A stretch of DNA of 64,000 nt from a virus: the IMG/VR virus record IMGVR_UViG_3300028883_000032, positions 142,857 to 206,856 of that record; one strand, given 5' to 3'. A model generated the notes under the pieces. That model ran no database searches and had not been told where the DNA came from. It worked only from the letters and a program-made list of their open reading frames with translations. The first letter of the stretch is position 1. The number at the start of each line of letters is the position of its first letter. Positions 4,999 to 20,077 of this stretch are shown one piece after another. A program made the position numbers and the translations under genes.

Positions 4999-5030
4999 TT
5001 TCACTCATTTTTATTTAACCAAAAAAAGAA

Positions 5031-5411
5031 ATGGCAAAAAAAATAAATACCGAGCCTAGAACCATAACCGTAAAATTAAAAGAAAGTGGAGAAACAGTCC
5101 ACCATATTTTAGAGTGTGGCAGTATTGATGAGTCTATTGACTTTTTACAAGATATTAAAAATAAATATCCTGAAATGTTCAATATAAGAATAGAAATTGA
5201 AAGCGAACCTGATTATTATGACAATGTTTATCAATATGTTAATTTTTATGGATCTAGGCTAGAAACAGCAGACGAAGTTGCTAAAAGAATTGGAATTGAA
5301 GAAGAGGCTGCTCGAAAGATAAGAGACCAAAGAAAAGCTAAAAAGAAAAAAACTGAAGAAGAGCAGCGGGCACTGTATGAAAAACTAAAAGAAAAGTTTG
5401 GGGATAAATAA
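5031..5411 (+). CDS. intron-encoded protein with charged helical C-terminus, 126 aa
   Basis: AACCAA lies eight nt before the start. The first 80 residues are mixed alpha/beta; residues ~85-126 form a highly charged Lys/Glu helix (AKKKKTEEEQRALYEKLKEK), a likely coiled coil. Stop and next start overlap (TAATG). No known family. Confidence 0.55.
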   Translation: MAKKINTEPRTITVKLKESGETVHHILECGSIDESIDFLQDIKNKYPEMFNIRIEIESEPDYYDNVYQYVNFYGSRLETADEVAKRIGIEEEAARKIRDQRKAKKKKTEEEQRALYEKLKEKFGDK

Positions 5412-7947: not shown

Positions 7948-8310
7948 GGGCTCGACTGGAATCGACGGGTGGATATTGAGAATTGGTTGCGTTACTAGTC
8001 CTGTCAAGGACGATAATCCATGACAATCGATAACTGGCGAAACTCCAGTCCTTAAGGCTGCCTAATCCTTCGGGATTATGCACATAAAAGCCACGTTGAC
8101 CGAATCCGATTCCCGTTAGGGTTCGAATCAACGTCGAAAATACGGGATGCTGTCTTACAGGCCTCGCTATAAGACATAAGATTTAGAGGATGGGTAGGGG
8201 TGATGAAAGTCTGGTGCCTGATCCCCGCCGAGATGAAATATCCAGACTAGGTAACGTAGACGCTAATTCTTGAGCCTCTCCGGACCCGGGTTCGAATCCC
8301 GGCGAGTCCA
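7948..8310 (+). ncRNA. ssrA: transfer-messenger RNA (tmRNA)
   Basis: The 5' end GGGCTCG (7948-7954) pairs with CGAGTCC (8303-8309) as the acceptor stem. CTGGAATCGACGGG follows, as in bacterial tmRNAs, and the 3' end has the T arm CCGGG-TTCGAAT-CCCGG. The tag frame GGC...TAA at 8036-8065 reads GETPVLKAA, followed by a CTAATCC-TTCG-GGATTA-type hairpin. CCA is not encoded (ACTA). It rescues stalled ribosomes and tags their products. The Gly start of the tag resembles Bacteroidota tmRNAs. Confidence 0.92.
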
Positions 8311-8312
8311 CT

Positions 8313-10758: not shown

Positions 10759-10773
10759 CAGGTAGCTTTTTTT
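10747..10773. terminator. bidirectional terminator between convergent genes
   Basis: AGCTACC (10748-10754), loop, GGTAGCT (10761-10767) and seven T on the + strand. The NYN gene ends within it and the RNA polymerase gene ends at 10772 from the other side. The minus-strand T-run is weak. Confidence 0.8.
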
Positions 10774-13700
10774 ACCAGAATACTCCCTTTTCAGGATCAA
10801 ACTGTGTAGCAAACTCGTTTGCATATAAGTATGCTGGCATGGGGTCATAGCCGTGTATATTTGTTTTGCTTGCTTTTGCTGCAGAGTCTTGAATAACCAT
10901 TTTGATGTTATTACTAGTAACACGGCTTAACCAGTCGTCCCGTTCATGTGGTAAAACATTTATACTCTTGAAATAAGGTTTATATTCTATTTGTGGAAGC
11001 CCTTCTGCTTTTCTCTCTTTATTTTCCTTATCAACTACAGTTTTAAAAACTGTATCCCCCTTTATAAACCTTGAGTTATCTGGAGCATTTGTAATATAAG
11101 CGTTATCGCTTATACCCCTGATTATAGTTTCGAATGTACGCTTGTGGAATTTTCCGTCGTAAACGTTATCCATCCTATCCACAAGAGATTTTTGAGCAGT
11201 AATGAAGTCTGTTAATTCCGCTAATTCTTGCGGTTTTTTTGTACCAGTACTTATAGGTTCTCCACGAGTAACTATATCGTCTATTTTAACCAGCAAGTCT
11301 CTTCCTGGTTTTACGTGGTGAAGTTTTGGACTATTACCATCTCCCATAATGGCAACTTCCCAACCTCCCGCCATTCCGGGTTTTATATTTATTACCCTAC
11401 CTTCTATTTGTGCAAGTTCCGCTTTTCCTGGTAAAATTGCCGGGACCTTTACAGTACGCTCTAATTCTGGGAATCCCGCTGTCACTCCTCCACCGGCTAG
11501 AGCGCTTCCCCCAGAGTGGAAAGTTTGCATGGTCAATTGTGTTGCTCTTTCAGATACAGCCTGTCCGTCTAAAACTCCAGCATTATAACCAATTTGTGGC
11601 AATTTTCCTTCAGGGGTTAGCCCATAACAAAAAGCACACATACCTCGTTCTGTTTCACAAGTTAGAGGGCTTCTAACCTTTATTAAACTGTTACCCAGTT
11701 TTTTAACCAAGTCAGGGTGGATTAAAGCCGTAATAGTATCCCCTACTTCTACCACTCCCGGCACTCTTTGCTGGCTTATACGCCCTATAACGTTTTTGTC
11801 ACTAGCAGATAACTCTATTCCATTTGTTGTACCACAATCTTGTTCGGTTATAAGCACGTCCTTCAGATTAGTTAAAAGCGCCTTATTTAAGGCACCAGTA
11901 TCTTGTGTGTTTACGGCGCGATCAACGGTGCCTTTTCTTGCAGAATACATGTGGTTCCAGAATGAAAAGTCGTCTACTCCCTCTGCCCAGGATTTTTCAA
12001 CAGGAGTGGGGATTGGGCGCCCCTTAACATCCAAAAGAACCCCAGGCATGGTTAGTACTTGCCTAATACTGTCTGGTTTTCCCTGTGATCCAGAATCAAG
12101 CATGTGGAAAAACCTATTATCGCTTTTACGCGCATTTTCATATAATTCTTTTTGAACTTTCTTGGAAGCTTCGTTATATATTTCAGCACGTTCCAGTGGA
12201 GTTTGGACACGGTTTGCTTTTTTGTGAGCAATTTCCATAATAGGACCACGAGCACTACGGTCCATATCCAAGTCCGTTATACTCAAAGTTATAGGTTTAC
12301 GATAAGAGTATTCTTTTCCAAGCTCTTTAAAGTGGTTCATCACCTCAGCAAACTTTTTAGGATGCCTATCGCTTATTTCCTTCATTATACGCTTAACCGT
12401 GTCAGCATCAAATACTAATGTTCTGTCTTTTAAGTCCTCCGGAAGCTTTTCTAAAACAAGCTCCTTACCGTAAGTTGTACGCCCTACTCCTGTTAATTCA
12501 ACTTCCTCCGCTTCGTCAAGTTTGCCGTCTCTAACATCATCAGCCATTTTTTTGAATGTGCTATATTTTTTGCCATCATATTTTCTATCCACTTTTGTAA
12601 GATACCAAAGACCTTGTTGAAATATTTGACTAAATGAGCCAATGATGGGCATAACAGGATCATCAAAATGGGGCCCATGTTGATAAATGTTTTTAGAAGG
12701 AATCATGCCAAACGCTTCACGAACGGCATCAGTGGATACAGGCACATTAACTGACATGGCGTCACCGTCAAAGTCCGCATTAAAACCCTTAACAATAAGA
12801 GGATTTAATTTAATAGCTTGGCCATCAATGCGCTTTGGTATTGCAGCTTGTACACTATGTTTATGTAACGATGGAGCACGATTAAGTAGTACTGGTCTGT
12901 TCTCCATGGCCAAGTCTATTCCACGCAGGCCAAGTTCTGTTTCTTCTTGAATTTCCTTACGTGCAGTCAGGGGACTGTGACCACGTTTGGTCAGCTCCTG
13001 TACGGCAAATGGAAGATAAATTTCTTTTGCCATTCCTGTGGGAATTCCTACCTCGTCTACTCCCAAGTTTGGATCAAGTGTAATGGTGCTGCGAGCAGAA
13101 AGATCCTGTCGTTTGCTCCAGACATTACTTTGTATAAAACCTTCTTTAGGTTCGGACCCAGATAGTGTGCGTAAGGCCCCCTCGTATTTTTCTTTCCCAA
13201 AGTGGGTTAGTTCTGTTAATCCCTGTAACTCCTTAAAATGATCGTAAAGCGACTTACGCACTTCATCAACTTTTATTTTCTCTGTGCCAATTTCCTTATC
13301 GCTAGCTAGGCCATCGTTAAGTTTCGATATGTCCCTATAATGATAATTAATTGGACTTACCATTAAATCACCGGAAGGTAATGGGTAAACTGGCCTAAAT
13401 ACTGGAGGCATGACTGGAATTTTATTTGTGGTATAGGCTTCTTCCGCTGTCATTCCTAGTTTATCTAGAGCTTCTAAGTATCGTACGCGCTTATTAAGTT
13501 TATTTACGCGTGACTCCGGTGCGGTTTTTAATTCATTTTTTGATTCCTGTAATTCTTTTTTTACATCTATAGCACGTAGGTCAGTAATTATTTTATCTAT
13601 TCCACCCTCTTCCCCTTTAAGGCGCGCCTCATACTGAGGGCGGGTAATACCAAGCAATGATTGGATTGCTTTTTCATACATTGGAGAAGGCATGGTATCA

Positions 13701-16700
13701 GTTAATTCTATGTGGCTCCATTTTGTACCTCCATGTCCTCCGGTAATTTTTGAGTCAAACAACCCGCCTTTTAAAGTTGCTAAATTTTTACCCATTAGCA
13801 TTTGTCCGGCATCGTCTAATTTACCGGCACTAATTTCAGATATTTTTTTATCCGTCAAAGGCATTAACTGAATTTCATTACCCTTTTTTTCACTATCAAC
13901 CCCGGCGGCCTTCATGTAGGCTACCATTTTATCAAATACAAAAGATTTTTGGGGAGTTGGTAGTGGCAAACCTAATTGTATTGCTCTCCACAGCTCATCA
14001 TTCTTTTGTGATTTTATAGCAGTGAAATCTCTTAAATTGTGTTTTGCACCATGCGCTAGGAGAACATATGTTTGCATAGGATCGACGGATTGTCCCCCAG
14101 ACTCTCCTCTACCGGGAGCCTCATTTACATTGTAGGAACCATAACTACGGCTTTTTTCTTTATGTTCAACCACATGCATTAGTTTTAGTATGTACTGAGG
14201 ACCAGTAAATACTTTCGATTTAAGAGGCTTACCGTCTTTGCCATCTAATACCACCTCGTCAGGTTCAATTCCTTGTTTTTTAAGTTCGTTAAGGAGTATG
14301 TTTAATTTGTCCTTACCATCGAAATTACGAATGACGTAAGGTTTACCTGTTTTTTCAGCAATTTTAGCCGCTGCTGTTTCTAACAATTGTGAGGGATTCA
14401 TTCTAGAAGGTATTCCAAACGGAGACATTATCATGTCTACACGCTTACCACTAGCGGTATGTGGAGCCTCCTCGTCAGGTATGATCTTAACAACAATCCC
14501 TTTACCACCGTATCTGTTGGCTAGTTTGTCTCCCTCCACTAATGGGTGACTTACTTTCACACGAACTACAATTTTACGGCCCATTTTAGAAACATACATT
14601 ACTTCCCCGGGCTCATCAAAATCATATACAACACTCCGGTCGTCATATAATTTAGACACCTTACGGTTCATATTCTTTAGTATTCTCTGTTCGTCGGTCA
14701 TTTCTCTTGGTTCAAGGTGTGCTATGAGTACATCACCCTTTTTAACTCTTTCACCTTCTTTTATAATTCCTTCCGAATCAAGTTTATTATAACTTCCAGT
14801 ATTTATAAAGGCACCTGGATATTCAGCGGCAAGCTTATCCTTATTAAAAATACCATTAGTGGTTCTATGCGAAGTATAATTGTGCAGACTAGAATGTGTA
14901 AACTTTTTAGCAAACGAATCTGTTACCACCAACCCGTCTTCAAATGAATAGCCCTTGTAAGGCATATAAGCTACTTGGACATTTGCGCCAAGACCTAATG
15001 TCTTTTTTCCACCAAAAGGTGGCTCAGCTTCAAAGTTATTTTTTGCTAATTCTTGTTTGGCCTTAACTACATCACCCGGTTTAACAGTAGGAGTACTGTG
15101 CAAGAACGACTCTTGGTTCATTGGAAAATAGTTATACAGCCCTATTTTAAGGCTTTTTGACTCCCCTTCAGGTTTTATATGAATGTAGTCAGGTGTTACT
15201 TTAGTTACAACACCTGATTTAATGTCGTCGGGAACATATGGATTAAGATAGTCACCAATCGACTCATCAAAACTTTTATCGATTAATGGCCGACCAACTT
15301 GTACTAGAGGAGCTTCCCCATTATCAATGGTAAAAGCTTGTGAAGTGTTTTTAGCAGCCATTAGTGCCCTGTTTCCTTGGGTATGTTCTAAAAATGGCGT
15401 TAAGTTTGTTGGCCACCCAAACAGAGATTGAGGTTTAATGATGTAGCCATCAACATCTTTATGGGCAAAAACTTCTGCTTTTCCCTTATTATATCCCCGT
15501 ATTACCCTTTTTGTAAAGTCCCCGTCATGTGGTATTGGTTTTCCATTTTTTAAGACATACTGCTCACCAAAACCAACTCTCATGTTCCACAACTCATGCG
15601 GAGAGACGTACTTAATATCACCGTCTTTCATAATTACGGGAGTTGTCATCTGTCCTTTACTGTTTTTTTCAACAAACAGACTCAAAGGAAGAGAAATCCC
15701 CACTTTGGAACTATCCGGAGTTTGTACAGGATCAAGAAATCCAATATGAGACGGATGGACGTTACGGGTTTCCATGGTTACCTCATGCATGGAAGGTATT
15801 CCTCCCGTACCTAATACTGAAGTTTTTCTCCATTCTGATAATATTGAGACTGGGTTCGTTTGAGGAGGTGTCGCACTAAGGTCACTTGTAGTAAAGAAAC
15901 TTTTTATGGGCTTACTATAAGTATCTGGACTTATAATATCCCTAATCTGATCCTTTCTGTCCGTACGGAAACGTAAATTACCTGTAATTTGTTTGTCCTT
16001 TTTTTCAAGAAAGAACCCGAGTAGATCATCCACAGTCATGAGGGACTTAAATACTAGCGAGTCACGCTCATCAGGATCTGCATCACCGCGTTGGACAGCC
16101 AGTAACTTTTTACTAACATCCATTAACGTATCTTTATTAACTTTTTTGTGTGATGCACCCAAAGTTATCAGTGTTGTATCTGGGTCGACTGCGGTTGTCT
16201 CAAAGTACTCATATAACATCTTTTTTGCTTCTTGTGGGGTTTTTGGTTTTTGATGTAAAACCTTTTCCACAAGGTTGACCCACATATCGGGCTCTTCTCC
16301 TTTATCGCTATTTTTGGCATAAAGGTCCTTGCCCCACAACTCAAGCATTTCTTGGTCTGTTACACCCAACGCCTTAAGAATGTTGTACAGTCTATAATTT
16401 TGATTCCCAGCACGCAATAGAAAAATTCCTTTTGTCGGGTCTAAAGTAAGTTTAAAATTAAAACCCTTTGCAAGATTAAATTGGGATTCAAAGTCACCAT
16501 TATCTTTCATGCGTGTATATATACCAGACTTAAGGCGCAACTGATTTGTTGTTTGGTATTCATTGCCGTCAATAATAGCACTAAATCTTTGTGTTTGTTT
16601 AGGTATATTGGCTATTTTTATTTTAGGTTTTTCATCAACAATGTCCCCTGTTTTTTTGTCGACAAGTCTTAAATGTCCGTAAACTGGAACAGACCAAGTA

Positions 16701-16912
16701 CTACCACTAACTTTGGCTTTCTTTTGGGCTGGAAGATCGTTTGTGGGGGCGTCCTCGTCCCCTATGTCCAAACTAATCAATTCCAATTTTTTATTTTGTG
16801 CATCAATGGGGTATTGATTGGATATAAAATTACCAATTACATCATAAATTTTAGAATTTTGAACATTAGGATTTAATGAGTCTTTTAATTCTCTGTCTGC
16901 ATTCCTCATCAT
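10772..16912 (-). CDS. single-chain fused RNA polymerase beta-beta' subunit, 2046 aa
   Basis: One uninterrupted frame holds both large subunits. The beta-like part (~1-1010) contains PFLEHTQGNRALM, MPYKGYSFEDG (650-660), a GDKLANRYGGKGIV segment, PFGIPSRMNPSQLLET and the C-terminal GSYNVNEAP...GESGGQ region. The beta'-like part (~1060-2046) has PVMPPVFRPVYPL, the catalytic NADFDGDAM (1378-1386, three Asp bind Mg2+), bridge-helix SARKG (1657-1661), the zinc cysteines C1693, C1752, C1759, C1762 and QLTMQTFHSGG. It is about 700 residues shorter than E. coli beta plus beta'; the beta' N-terminal zinc site is not seen. No alpha or omega gene is present here. The start is preceded by GGGAGAA. It presumably transcribes phage promoters with the sigma factor encoded at 41250-42002. 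Confidence 0.95.
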   Translation of the reverse strand: MMRNADRELKDSLNPNVQNSKIYDVIGNFISNQYPIDAQNKKLELISLDIGDEDAPTNDLPAQKKAKVSGSTWSVPVYGHLRLVDKKTGDIVDEKPKIKIANIPKQTQRFSAIIDGNEYQTTNQLRLKSGIYTRMKDNGDFESQFNLAKGFNFKLTLDPTKGIFLLRAGNQNYRLYNILKALGVTDQEMLELWGKDLYAKNSDKGEEPDMWVNLVEKVLHQKPKTPQEAKKMLYEYFETTAVDPDTTLITLGASHKKVNKDTLMDVSKKLLAVQRGDADPDERDSLVFKSLMTVDDLLGFFLEKKDKQITGNLRFRTDRKDQIRDIISPDTYSKPIKSFFTTSDLSATPPQTNPVSILSEWRKTSVLGTGGIPSMHEVTMETRNVHPSHIGFLDPVQTPDSSKVGISLPLSLFVEKNSKGQMTTPVIMKDGDIKYVSPHELWNMRVGFGEQYVLKNGKPIPHDGDFTKRVIRGYNKGKAEVFAHKDVDGYIIKPQSLFGWPTNLTPFLEHTQGNRALMAAKNTSQAFTIDNGEAPLVQVGRPLIDKSFDESIGDYLNPYVPDDIKSGVVTKVTPDYIHIKPEGESKSLKIGLYNYFPMNQESFLHSTPTVKPGDVVKAKQELAKNNFEAEPPFGGKKTLGLGANVQVAYMPYKGYSFEDGLVVTDSFAKKFTHSSLHNYTSHRTTNGIFNKDKLAAEYPGAFINTGSYNKLDSEGIIKEGERVKKGDVLIAHLEPREMTDEQRILKNMNRKVSKLYDDRSVVYDFDEPGEVMYVSKMGRKIVVRVKVSHPLVEGDKLANRYGGKGIVVKIIPDEEAPHTASGKRVDMIMSPFGIPSRMNPSQLLETAAAKIAEKTGKPYVIRNFDGKDKLNILLNELKKQGIEPDEVVLDGKDGKPLKSKVFTGPQYILKLMHVVEHKEKSRSYGSYNVNEAPGRGESGGQSVDPMQTYVLLAHGAKHNLRDFTAIKSQKNDELWRAIQLGLPLPTPQKSFVFDKMVAYMKAAGVDSEKKGNEIQLMPLTDKKISEISAGKLDDAGQMLMGKNLATLKGGLFDSKITGGHGGTKWSHIELTDTMPSPMYEKAIQSLLGITRPQYEARLKGEEGGIDKIITDLRAIDVKKELQESKNELKTAPESRVNKLNKRVRYLEALDKLGMTAEEAYTTNKIPVMPPVFRPVYPLPSGDLMVSPINYHYRDISKLNDGLASDKEIGTEKIKVDEVRKSLYDHFKELQGLTELTHFGKEKYEGALRTLSGSEPKEGFIQSNVWSKRQDLSARSTITLDPNLGVDEVGIPTGMAKEIYLPFAVQELTKRGHSPLTARKEIQEETELGLRGIDLAMENRPVLLNRAPSLHKHSVQAAIPKRIDGQAIKLNPLIVKGFNADFDGDAMSVNVPVSTDAVREAFGMIPSKNIYQHGPHFDDPVMPIIGSFSQIFQQGLWYLTKVDRKYDGKKYSTFKKMADDVRDGKLDEAEEVELTGVGRTTYGKELVLEKLPEDLKDRTLVFDADTVKRIMKEISDRHPKKFAEVMNHFKELGKEYSYRKPITLSITDLDMDRSARGPIMEIAHKKANRVQTPLERAEIYNEASKKVQKELYENARKSDNRFFHMLDSGSQGKPDSIRQVLTMPGVLLDVKGRPIPTPVEKSWAEGVDDFSFWNHMYSARKGTVDRAVNTQDTGALNKALLTNLKDVLITEQDCGTTNGIELSASDKNVIGRISQQRVPGVVEVGDTITALIHPDLVKKLGNSLIKVRSPLTCETERGMCAFCYGLTPEGKLPQIGYNAGVLDGQAVSERATQLTMQTFHSGGSALAGGGVTAGFPELERTVKVPAILPGKAELAQIEGRVINIKPGMAGGWEVAIMGDGNSPKLHHVKPGRDLLVKIDDIVTRGEPISTGTKKPQELAELTDFITAQKSLVDRMDNVYDGKFHKRTFETIIRGISDNAYITNAPDNSRFIKGDTVFKTVVDKENKERKAEGLPQIEYKPYFKSINVLPHERDDWLSRVTSNNIKMVIQDSAAKASKTNIHGYDPMPAYLYANEFATQFDPEKGVFW

Positions 16913-17668: not shown

Positions 17669-17680
17669 TGGTATAAGATT
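17669..17680 (+). promoter_or_regulatory. TGGNATAAGA-class promoter of the large structured RNA
   Basis: TGGTATAAGATT, best match to the motif. The predicted start of transcription (~17684) coincides with the first strand of the stem that closes the 5' domain of the large RNA, which supports both assignments. Confidence 0.7.
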
Positions 17681-17682
17681 TT

Positions 17683-18501
17683 AAGCTGTTAGAGCTCGCC
17701 CCTTATCCTCTAAGGGAACCATAGTGATTCGCTATGGTAATGTACATTCAAACATAATTCAACACGGGCCTTTCGGCCCTATAACATGGTTATGTCCTCA
17801 AATTAGGATAGGATGATTTATAACGCCATCAAAGATGGCTATAATGCGATCCTAAAAATTCTGATCGCCTCCTTCCCCGCGCCCTTCCGGCGATGTAACA
17901 GCTTGTTCTAACCTGTCAATCTAACAGTTGACTACTGGTTTATAGATTATGGAGAGGGGCTACCTCTAGTTTTTATACACTAGAAAGATAAGTGTTACGC
18001 TTATCTTGTCCTTTGTTCATTCCATAGCAGCATAATTCCACTTCTCATCCCCTCGACTTCGGCCGCGTTGGCCTCGTCTCAAGGATTCGAATTGGAAGCA
18101 TTTACAATTTTATGCTGTTATGAATGAACTCGAGTTTTGCCCACCAGCACCCAGTTATTTTCTGGGATCACAATTGCACACGCAGGCCGACGGCCATGGT
18201 CCCTGGGCCGGCTGCCTAACTGCAGGTATAATTCAACGTTTTGAAACGGCGCCAAAATTTAAACAAATTAAAAAGTGGCTAACGCACAATCGATGAGGAT
18301 CCTCCGGATCCTTAAGGATCTAGCGCTAATGCATGCCTCTTTTACTAAAAAAAGCGCTCGCCCTCTCCAATAGAGTAACCTATGAACCGTCAGTTACAGA
18401 ACCATTTGTGTATATTTCCCAATACACAACTGGGTGTTTCGCCCAGAAAGTGAAAAGAGTACTGATTATGTGTAACTGAACCAACTTTGGTTGGTTTTTT
18501 T
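17683..18501 (+). ncRNA. large (~820 nt) structured noncoding RNA upstream of the reverse transcriptase
   Basis: No substantial reading frame, bounded by a promoter and a terminator. AAGCTGTTA (17683-17691) pairs perfectly with TAACAGCTT (17896-17904), closing a 5' domain with hairpins such as ACCATAG/CTATGGT, GGGCC/GGCCC and GCCATC/GATGGC. CATTC...CAGCATAA (from ~18018) pairs with TTATGCTG...GAATG (to ~18128), and CAGTTACA (~18391) with TGTAACTG (~18471) closes a 3' domain. Other hairpins include GATAAG/CTTATC, CTGGG/CCCAG and TTGTGTAT/ATACACAA. It could be an oversized retron ncRNA (msr-msd near the 3' end) or a member of the giant phage RNA classes (GOLLD or ROOL). Confidence 0.75.
18479..18501 (+). 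terminator. terminator of the large RNA
   Basis: AACCAAC (18479-18485), loop TTTG, GTTGGTT (18490-18496), T-run. It lies 20 bases before the reverse transcriptase start, so RT expression probably relies on read-through, keeping RNA in excess over RT. Confidence 0.85.
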
Positions 18502-18520
18502 AGTTAACCAATTTTAACAA

Positions 18521-19450
18521 ATGACTAAACAATCTATAAGCATATATAGTGTCCTTGATAAATCTCAAGAATATATAGAAGATATTATCTCTAACAAAGA
18601 AAAGCATTATATTACTTTTAGAATACCAAAACGTAATGGGCGTTTTCGTAAAATAGAGGCTCCTGACGACGCCTTAAAAGAGTTACAAACCACAATAAAC
18701 GAAAAAGTATTTTCTATTTATAAACCCCATCGTATAGCGCACGGATTTATTTCTAATAGATCGCCGAAAACAAATGCGGAAGCGCATGTGGGGGCAAAAA
18801 TAATCGTGGAAGTGGATATAAAGGATTTTTTCCCATCCATTAAAAAAGACAGGGTTATTAAAGTACTTGAGTACTTATTTGTTCAAAAAGCTGGAATGTT
18901 TAAATCTTCCGCCCATAAGCAGGAAGCAATAAAAGTCATATCAGAATTAATTACTCACCATGATAGGCTACCCCAAGGAGCCCCAACTAGTCCACCGTTT
19001 AGTAATCTATCGGTGCTAGGAATGGATAAAGACTTATTAAAATTAGAAGAGCCTTATGGTGCAACCGTAACTAGATACGCAGATGATATCACAATGTCAT
19101 CAGAATACAATGTACAATTGCCACAAGTTATCCCGGAATTACGTAAAATAGTGACCAAATATGGGTTTAAATTAAACAACGTTAAGACTCGAGTTATTCG
19201 ACAAAATCGTAGGATGTTGGTAACTGGAGTAGTAGTTAACGAAAAACCGAACATTAGAAAGGATGTTCGACGTAGTTTAAGAGCTAAATTACATAATTAC
19301 AATAGGGATCACACCCCTATCACCCAAGAAGAATACCAACGTATTCAGGGGCAAATTGCTTGGATTAAGTATTTAAACCCTCTCCATGGAGATAGGCTCG
19401 GAGAACAATTGGACCGCGTTCAACGAGAAGAACCCACAGTAGTCTTATAG
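18521..19450 (+). CDS. retron-type reverse transcriptase, 309 aa
   Basis: Catalytic YADD at residues 186-189, VEVDIKDFFPSI (first catalytic Asp) near 105-116, and LPQGAPTSPPFSNL near 147-160. The retron hallmarks are both present: NAEAH (NAxxH, 85-89) in region X and VTG (234-236) in region Y. The length matches stand-alone retron RTs. It would reverse transcribe part of a cognate structured RNA, expected directly upstream where the large RNA lies. AACCAA lies nine nt before ATG; there is no Shine-Dalgarno. Retrons serve as abortive-infection systems; in a phage it may act against competing phages. Confidence 0.92.
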   Translation: MTKQSISIYSVLDKSQEYIEDIISNKEKHYITFRIPKRNGRFRKIEAPDDALKELQTTINEKVFSIYKPHRIAHGFISNRSPKTNAEAHVGAKIIVEVDIKDFFPSIKKDRVIKVLEYLFVQKAGMFKSSAHKQEAIKVISELITHHDRLPQGAPTSPPFSNLSVLGMDKDLLKLEEPYGATVTRYADDITMSSEYNVQLPQVIPELRKIVTKYGFKLNNVKTRVIRQNRRMLVTGVVVNEKPNIRKDVRRSLRAKLHNYNRDHTPITQEEYQRIQGQIAWIKYLNPLHGDRLGEQLDRVQREEPTVVL

Positions 19451-19453
19451 GCT

Positions 19454-19624
19454 ATGAAAAAACATAAGTTCTGGTGGATGTACAAATTCACTAACAGCAT
19501 ATTGCTGATGGTCCAGTATTTATTTTATAGAAGAGAGGGTGGTATTGTTGCCTCATTTCAAAGCATTATTAACAATTGGGTTAAAAGAAACAGACCCGGA
19601 CAACACGAGAAGAAAAAGAATTAA
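19454..19624 (+). CDS. small membrane protein candidate, 56 aa
   Basis: ATG 19454 follows the RT stop by three bases. Residues ~6-24 (FWWMYKFTNSILLMVQYLF) are aromatic and hydrophobic, a possible membrane helix with a Lys-rich N-terminus and a basic tail (HEKKKN). No Shine-Dalgarno. It overlaps the next gene in another frame, so only one of the two may be real. Retron effectors are often membrane proteins, so an effector role is conceivable but unproven. Confidence 0.4.
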   Translation: MKKHKFWWMYKFTNSILLMVQYLFYRREGGIVASFQSIINNWVKRNRPGQHEKKKN

Positions 19625-19784
19625 TTATACGAAGGGTAGGGATATTATAAAATGGTATCGTGCCCCTAGTATATCCGATGCAATGGGTATATCTCGTAAA
19701 ACGAGATACTCAAGGATTAAATATATCACTGAAATAAGTCACGATGATTATGTCAAAGGTGTAGCGCGCCACCACGAATATTAA
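19539..19784 (+). CDS. basic hypothetical protein, 81 aa (GTG start)
   Basis: GTG 19539 has GAGAGG immediately upstream, which is tight; a TTG at 19545 is the alternative. The product is rich in Arg and Lys (TRRKRINYTKGRDIIKWYR). No family recognised. It overlaps the small membrane ORF by 86 nt, and either could be a retron accessory gene. Confidence 0.45.
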   Translation: MVLLPHFKALLTIGLKETDPDNTRRKRINYTKGRDIIKWYRAPSISDAMGISRKTRYSRIKYITEISHDDYVKGVARHHEY

Positions 19785-19787
19785 AAT

Positions 19788-19796
19788 TGGCATAAG
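19788..19796 (+). promoter_or_regulatory. TGGNATAAGA-class promoter of the cloverleaf RNA
   Basis: TTGGCATAAGAAT immediately after the preceding stop codon. Transcription would start near 19803 and run to the T-run at 20072-20077. Confidence 0.55.
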
Positions 19797-19802
19797 AATA
19801 TG

Positions 19803-20077
19803 TGGCGAGGGCGGTGCCCACCAGAAACCTCGTGTTTCTGGCCCTAAAATATGTGGGACATAAAAAACATTTAGAAACTATTGAAGAAGTATTTAGTGCA
19901 TTTAGAGAATATTAGATAAGTGTTACTGTAGCTCAATTAGTAGAGCGCCCCGCGATAAAACGGGGAGGTGTTGGAGCAAGGCCAACCAGTAATAGAGAGA
20001 TTGTCCGCCGGGTCTAGCAAATAGATATTCGTAAAGGCAAGCTAGTACTTCCCCGCTGGGGTGGTCTCTCATTTTTT
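19803..20077 (+). ncRNA. candidate structured RNA containing a tRNA-like cloverleaf
   Basis: Promoter at 19788 and a terminator-like end at 20077 define ~275 nt. CCAGAAAC and GTTTCTGG form an 8-bp hairpin near 19817-19840. The cloverleaf occupies 19922-19994. From the next base, GAGAGAT (19995-20001) pairs with GTCTCTC (20064-20070) followed by six T, closing a domain that contains CTAGC/GCTAG and CCCC/GGGG hairpins. A 37-codon frame from GTG 19802 is open but looks incidental. Confidence 0.5.
19922..19994 (+). tRNA. tRNA-like cloverleaf with non-canonical loops
   Basis: Geometry is tRNA-like: acceptor GTTACTG/CAGTAAT (7 bp), D stem GCTC/GAGC, anticodon stem CCCCG/CGGGG, T stem GTTGG/CCAAC with a 7-nt loop. 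However, the anticodon loop has eight bases (CGATAAAA), the D loop lacks GG, and the T loop reads AGCAAGG instead of TTCRAAY. It is probably not an ordinary elongator tRNA. Options are a decayed tRNA, a frameshift suppressor or a tRNA mimic. Confidence 0.5.

Follow-up and report, generated by a model that had tools for sequence, protein, structure and literature searches.

The IMG/VR virus record IMGVR_UViG_3300028883_000032 (206,856 bases) contains, within the 64,000-nucleotide (nt) stretch analysed here (bases 142857-206856, hereafter the window), a gene for a retron-type reverse transcriptase (RT) preceded by a long structured RNA with a dense array of restriction sites. On balance, we favor reading this locus as an effectorless phage retron built as an array of msr-msd-like units, in which the msd payload has been selected to contain many Type II sites and would act as a restriction decoy. 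That the retron-made DNA polylinker renders many Type II restriction-modification systems ineffective at the same time, its list of sites evolving for non-redundancy, is a claim that we would put at even chances. No description of a restriction-site array of this kind was found in a search of open-access literature. Coordinates are window positions unless prefixed by a locus (L) or contig (G) name, and the contigs are metagenomic.

The array occupies a segment upstream of the RT gene:
18055-18365, + strand: polylinker with 20 palindromic hexamers, 18 of them distinct, in 311 nt (~5.8 expected).
The first half of the list reads CGGCCG, TTCGAA, CTCGAG, CAATTG, CCATGG, GCCGGC, CTGCAG, AACGTT, GGCGCC, and AAATTT, and the remainder TTTAAA, ATCGAT, GGATCC (twice), TCCGGA, CTTAAG, AGCGCT (twice), ATGCAT, and GCATGC. 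A scan of the whole 207-kb window contig yields a single palindrome-array outlier, the RT locus (log10p -6.3; next -2.1), and this locus is likewise the sole outlier in the contig-wide scans of G003, G007, and G008; G001, the contig with the L006 RT, shows no array in such a scan.

Relatives of the RT were gathered with an alignment of distant phage RTs, which led to large-phage contigs whose RTs are ~34-48% identical to that of the window. Single-protein scans recovered none, neither with the window RT (viral and genome collections) nor with the RNA polymerase encoded nearby (viral collection). The non-coding DNA of L008 contains 43 palindromic hexamers in 620 nt, of which 32, all different, lie inside one 426-nt core. 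Over nine loci, 191 palindromic hexamers compare with 61 ± 6.5 in dinucleotide shuffles; the excess is strong for perfect six-base palindromes (z = 20) and far weaker for three-base arms at other spacings. In the RT tree (FastTree, local support), a clade with a support of 99 has 14 rows, and 12 of these carry the array; L006 and L007, which lack it, are nested inside the clade. Further carriers are L029 and L047, which form a second RT group, and L101, which was outside the tree sample. A phage found in a later scan (L305) has its array ahead of the glycosyltransferase gene, where expected, with 23 palindromes, 20 of them distinct and every one with a known enzyme. Among 80 bacterial relatives no array was detected, save one high-scoring hit in Rhodococcus (L244, log10p -5.8), which was rejected as a false positive as the stretch lies mostly inside a GC-rich coding gene. 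The pattern was noticed after the fact and this one bacterial locus did score high within a coding gene, as might be expected if chance, assembly error, or cloning-vector contamination were at work. This explanation is contradicted by z values of about 20-29 against shuffles, by the genome-wide scan, and by the later-found phage L305, and we give it almost no credence; a cloning artefact in particular was rejected because the RT loci of many independent contigs hold different arrays.

The excess is confined to particular classes of sites. With the REBASE copy in Biopython as the list of known enzymes, palindromes that have a known enzyme number 293 (summed over 15 loci) vs. 78.7 expected, whereas the eight palindromes lacking one occur 7 times vs. 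9.3 expected (GC-stratified permutation p = 0.0005 for this contrast). The known interrupted sites CCTNAGG, GCTNAGC, GGTNACC, and TCCNGGA are enriched (20 vs. 6.3), as are four known gap-4 sites (18 vs. 4.6), and interrupted palindromes that are not known sites are hardly enriched. Gap-2 palindromes are in excess (146 vs. 88) and the list holds no gap-2 site; this excess probably reflects hexamers with complementary flanks. Non-palindromic restriction sites show no enrichment (1718 vs. 1721 expected). This specificity, with no-enzyme palindromes not enriched, contradicts the idea that the palindromes serve RNA structure, for example by letting an ornate large RNA similar to GOLLD or ROOL dimerise through kissing loops. 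The phage RNA is indeed large and structured, and palindromic loops are able to dimerise, but the centre lies in a predicted hairpin loop for only 18 of 268 palindromes, the palindromes show no higher unpaired fraction than the remaining sequence, and many of them overlap one another. Rfam covariance models detected only a transfer RNA (tRNA) and a sub-threshold small RNA (opposite strand) in the window and neither GOLLD nor ROOL, and we consider a purely structural role very improbable.

Judging from its sequence, the array is selected for variety, because repeats of the same site within a locus (35) are far below random draws from the pooled frequencies (76 ± 6.3), i.e. half of chance. The commonest sites are CTGCAG (13 of 15 loci) and GGCGCC (12 of 15). 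Sequence comparison also indicates that the array changes more rapidly than the sequence on either side of it. Between L008 and L009, the flanks align at 77% and 90% and the array between them does not align, and 3 of the 8 substitutions separating L013 and L064 over 8.8 kb fall inside the 266-nt array (Fisher p = 0.0014); relative to L013, one array substitution in L064 creates CTGCAG and another removes CAGCTG. CCTAGG-bearing tandem repeats are also present in the array RNA of these two near-identical phages (L013:7030-7160 and L064) and differ in copy number between them. The string CCATGGTCCC is common to the window (18192-18202) and the otherwise unalike arrays of L012, L013, and L098, either by convergence or as a relic.

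The RNA that contains the polylinker resolves into the following elements, with a1 and a2 denoting the inverted repeats that form the closing stems and z the fold z-score:
17669-17678, + strand: promoter-like motif TGGTATAAGA ahead of the RNA, predicted from sequence.
17682-17905, + strand: retron-like unit 1 (~224 nt, z -6.6).
17682-17691, + strand: a1 of unit 1, TAAGCTGTTA, with G next.
17718-17738, + strand: hairpin of unit 1, ACCATAGTGATTCGCTATGGT.
17896-17905, + strand: a2 of unit 1, TAACAGCTTG, preceded by G.
17950-18369, + strand: retron-like unit 2 with the polylinker as payload (about 420-455 nt, z -6.65).
17950-17958, + strand: a1 of unit 2, TGGAGAGGG, with G next.
17985-18007, + strand: hairpin of unit 2.
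18361-18369, + strand: a2 of unit 2, CCCTCTCCA, preceded by G.
18390-18479, + strand: retron-like unit 3 (~90 nt, z -3.6).
18390-18398, + strand: a1 of unit 3, TCAGTTACA, with G next.
18430-18446, + strand: hairpin of unit 3, CTGGGTGTTTCGCCCAG.
18471-18479, + strand: a2 of unit 3, TGTAACTGA, preceded by G.
18481-18507, + strand: terminator-like hairpin and T-run closing the RNA, from sequence and fold.
The RNA spans ~17680-18507 (~820 nt), and the ATG of the RT gene follows 13 nt after its end. The fold of 17669-18520 has a z-score of -8.8, with none of 20 shuffles equally good, and an outer helix lengthens the closing stem of unit 2 to ~17936-18390. (TT)GGTATAAGA motifs resembling the promoter-like motif of the window precede the arrays of L012, L014, and L368. 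Thus, the terminated and heavily structured RNA proposed in an initial sequence-only reading of this DNA was borne out, as was its unusual length; the single oversized msr-msd that this reading envisaged was not, as a tandem array of three retron-like units is strongly supported by the sequence.

Hairpins capped by YG-NNN-CG are rare, with 14 on both strands of the 207 kb, but three of these lie within the window RNA (17725, 17993, and 18435). This enriched cap is of the type found in the Escherichia coli locus that we take to be retron Eco1, where TG-TTT-CG lies in GGATGTTGTTTCGGCATCC between the annotated retron effector and the RT gene, the a1 stem ends in CCCTTA before a G, and a2 starts with TAAGGG after a G. 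A putative role of the capped hairpin is that of the msr stem-loop recognised by the RT. In the window, the a1/a2 inverted repeats are present in non-coding RNA adjoining the RT, and the G directly after a1, putatively the priming position, is found in all three units and in many units of relatives. The complete frame of stem, G, hairpin, payload, G, and stem can be traced in each of the three window units and in many units of relatives, and it surrounds the array in L009, L014, L015, L088, L094, L098, L101, and L368 (nine loci with the window). When the non-pairing letters flanking the stems were compared, G/G gave 9 strong stems and every other combination at most 2; without the G constraint, the closing-stem test is weak in single loci. 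A unit without an array in L008/L009 has a 20-pair closing stem with five double (compensatory) changes. Upstream of a related RT (L079:3500-3860), three near-repeats are arranged around a YG-NNN-CG-capped hairpin, also without an array. Because the retron frame encloses the array, its placement in the msd position of a retron-like unit is strongly supported at the sequence level. This placement, and the tracking of the RT clade by the array, make it improbable that the array acts as phage DNA or RNA with reverse transcription irrelevant (it might, say, be sacrificed or be prone to recombination) and with the RT a mere neighbour, although the array is also phage DNA and several relatives have 2-4 kb between it and the RT.

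The enzyme predicted to copy these units is encoded immediately downstream:
18521-19450, + strand: retron-type RT of 309 amino acids (aa), from motifs, Pfam, PADLOC, PDB sequence, and fold comparison.
Its motifs NAEAHVG, LPQGAPTSP, RYADD, and VTGVVVNE include the retron hallmarks NAxxH, VTG, and YADD on which the initial assignment was based, and all further comparisons agree with it. The protein matches Pfam RVT_1 (E = 2.5e-23) and PADLOC retron RTs (down to 3e-77), and the best PDB sequence match to a profile of its clade is the retron Ec86 RT (2e-59). Retron RTs are thus its nearest relatives by sequence and by fold, an observation that bears on a diversity-generating retroelement as an alternative class, and the tree places it in the phage clade described above. 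The RT looks like a resident gene of the phage family rather than a passing insertion, because the locus is partly syntenic among relatives. Besides the RT itself, the shared genes are one for RNA polymerase, on the opposite strand, and one for a glycosyltransferase; a MoxR ATPase and a VWA protein are often encoded as well, as are a small conserved protein and a GP88-like one. A MoxR gene was not found in 4 of the 11 records searched, and the window locus contains neither a MoxR nor a VWA gene.

In the favored reading, the RT would bind the YG-NNN-CG hairpin, prime from the G after a1, and copy the payload into many DNA copies. The sites would be displayed as an RNA-DNA hybrid or after second-strand synthesis, and during infection the copies would titrate the Type II restriction endonucleases of the host, the corresponding methyltransferases, or both. 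We infer this decoy function because the expected product of the RT is a DNA copy of the payload with its many Type II sites; that DNA-modifying enzymes act on sites in reverse-transcribed DNA (RT-DNA) is also implied by the proposal that RT-DNA methylation triggers retrons (PMC12548924). Several observations weigh against a decoy. Most sites are single-copy, so that a single strand folded on itself cannot present them in duplex form, and few are fully paired in predicted folds; the hybrid or second strand that must be assumed is the weakest step. The array is absent from the unit 1 payload (17742-17895), unit 3, and the L006 and L007 RNAs, so a decoy array would account for only part of the locus. 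Avoidance of hexamer palindromes in phage genomes is mild and does not single out the listed sites. Finally, the limits of the array cores were set visually once the pattern had been noticed, and effect sizes may be somewhat inflated; the genome-wide scan, the clade distribution, and phage L305 are independent of these limits. As methylases of the same systems recognise the same sites, the sequence data fit either target, and a decoy might instead soak up methylation, leaving the host's own restriction enzymes to attack host DNA or go unbalanced. This variant would require very many copies, and we regard it as unlikely.

The region between the RT gene and the tRNA-like RNA described below contains two overlapping open reading frames (ORFs), as initially noted:
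19454-19624, + strand: 56-aa ORF overlapping the next, without a match and possibly not a gene.
19539-19784, + strand: small conserved ORF of up to 81 aa, start uncertain, with homologues 3' of the RT in L011, L012, L014, and L015.
Neither has a Pfam or PADLOC match, and PHROGs matches are marginal only; the conserved protein has no significant fold match and weakly resembles the RNA polymerase epsilon subunit. Comparison with Pfam, PADLOC, and PHROGs revealed no effector gene of a known retron type at the window locus, in agreement with the initial reading. The new phage-borne retron architecture suggested there thus holds in outline (RT, a1/a2, branch-G position, msr-like hairpin, no known effector), to be amended by the tandem three-unit RNA and the restriction-site array at 18055-18365, which had gone unnoticed. 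The main rival to a decoy is a trip-wire, in which the RT-DNA would work as a sensor of many specificities: an enzyme of the host or of a competing phage that cuts or methylates any one site would set off a not-yet-recognised effector such as the small conserved protein. It ranks first among the rivals because RT-DNA methylation, at GATC, appears to be what triggers Retron-Asa1 and Retron-Squ1 (PMC12548924). A single copy per site suffices for a sensor, and a small gene lies 3' of the RT in several relatives, but no effector family was found for the small ORFs and the small protein lacks a significant fold match; we consider a sensor rather unlikely.

The remaining features of the region lie outside these units. 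The cloverleaf that the sequence-only reading placed downstream is present as a tRNA-like RNA:
19921-19995, + strand: tRNA-like RNA (cloverleaf), Rfam tRNA 44.7 bits, 8-nt anticodon loop.
In 19921-20077 (+), this gene, with its anticodon loop CGATAAAA and an unusual T-loop, is followed by a terminator-like hairpin, and it is perhaps a frameshift-suppressor tRNA. It seems not to belong to the conserved retron locus, to which it had been assigned, because none of eleven relative loci was found to contain a tRNA. A transfer-messenger RNA gene at 7948-8311 (+) encodes the tag peptide GETPVLKAA, and a 2046-aa ORF at 10772-16912 (-) matches both the beta and beta' RNA polymerase subunits, apparently fused in one protein. 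Among relatives, the VWA gene of L011 (1013-3614) is interrupted by an insert with an endonuclease-like ORF, and L013 has a group I intron 3' of the RT (5017-5279).

If the decoy reading is true, the virus makes decoy DNA listing its hosts' restriction sites, a counter-defence strategy of which we found no description. It would supply a likely function for an effectorless phage retron, and the array may serve as a readable record of the restriction specificities met by this phage family. Compared to known systems, the window RNA shares with the ornate large RNAs GOLLD and ROOL that it is long, structured, and found in phage, but differs in lacking an Rfam match and in having retron units and an RT. 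With Eco1 (Ec86) and other msr-msd retrons the locus shares the RT family and fold and an RNA adjoining the RT, and with Eco1 also the a1/a2 stems, the G after a1 and before a2, and the YG-NNN-CG hairpin cap; it differs in having several units per RNA, a restriction-site payload of hundreds of nt, and no known effector, and in residing in a large phage. T7 Ocr is a phage anti-restriction protein thought to occupy restriction enzymes instead of phage DNA. In contrast to this protein DNA mimic, which acts against Type I enzymes, the window would encode a nucleic-acid decoy listing Type II sites. For Retron-Asa1 and Retron-Squ1, as here, DNA-modification sites carried by the retron RNA seem relevant to function, but these bacterial defence retrons rely on one motif (GATC), whereas the phage array lists tens of different sites (PMC12548924).
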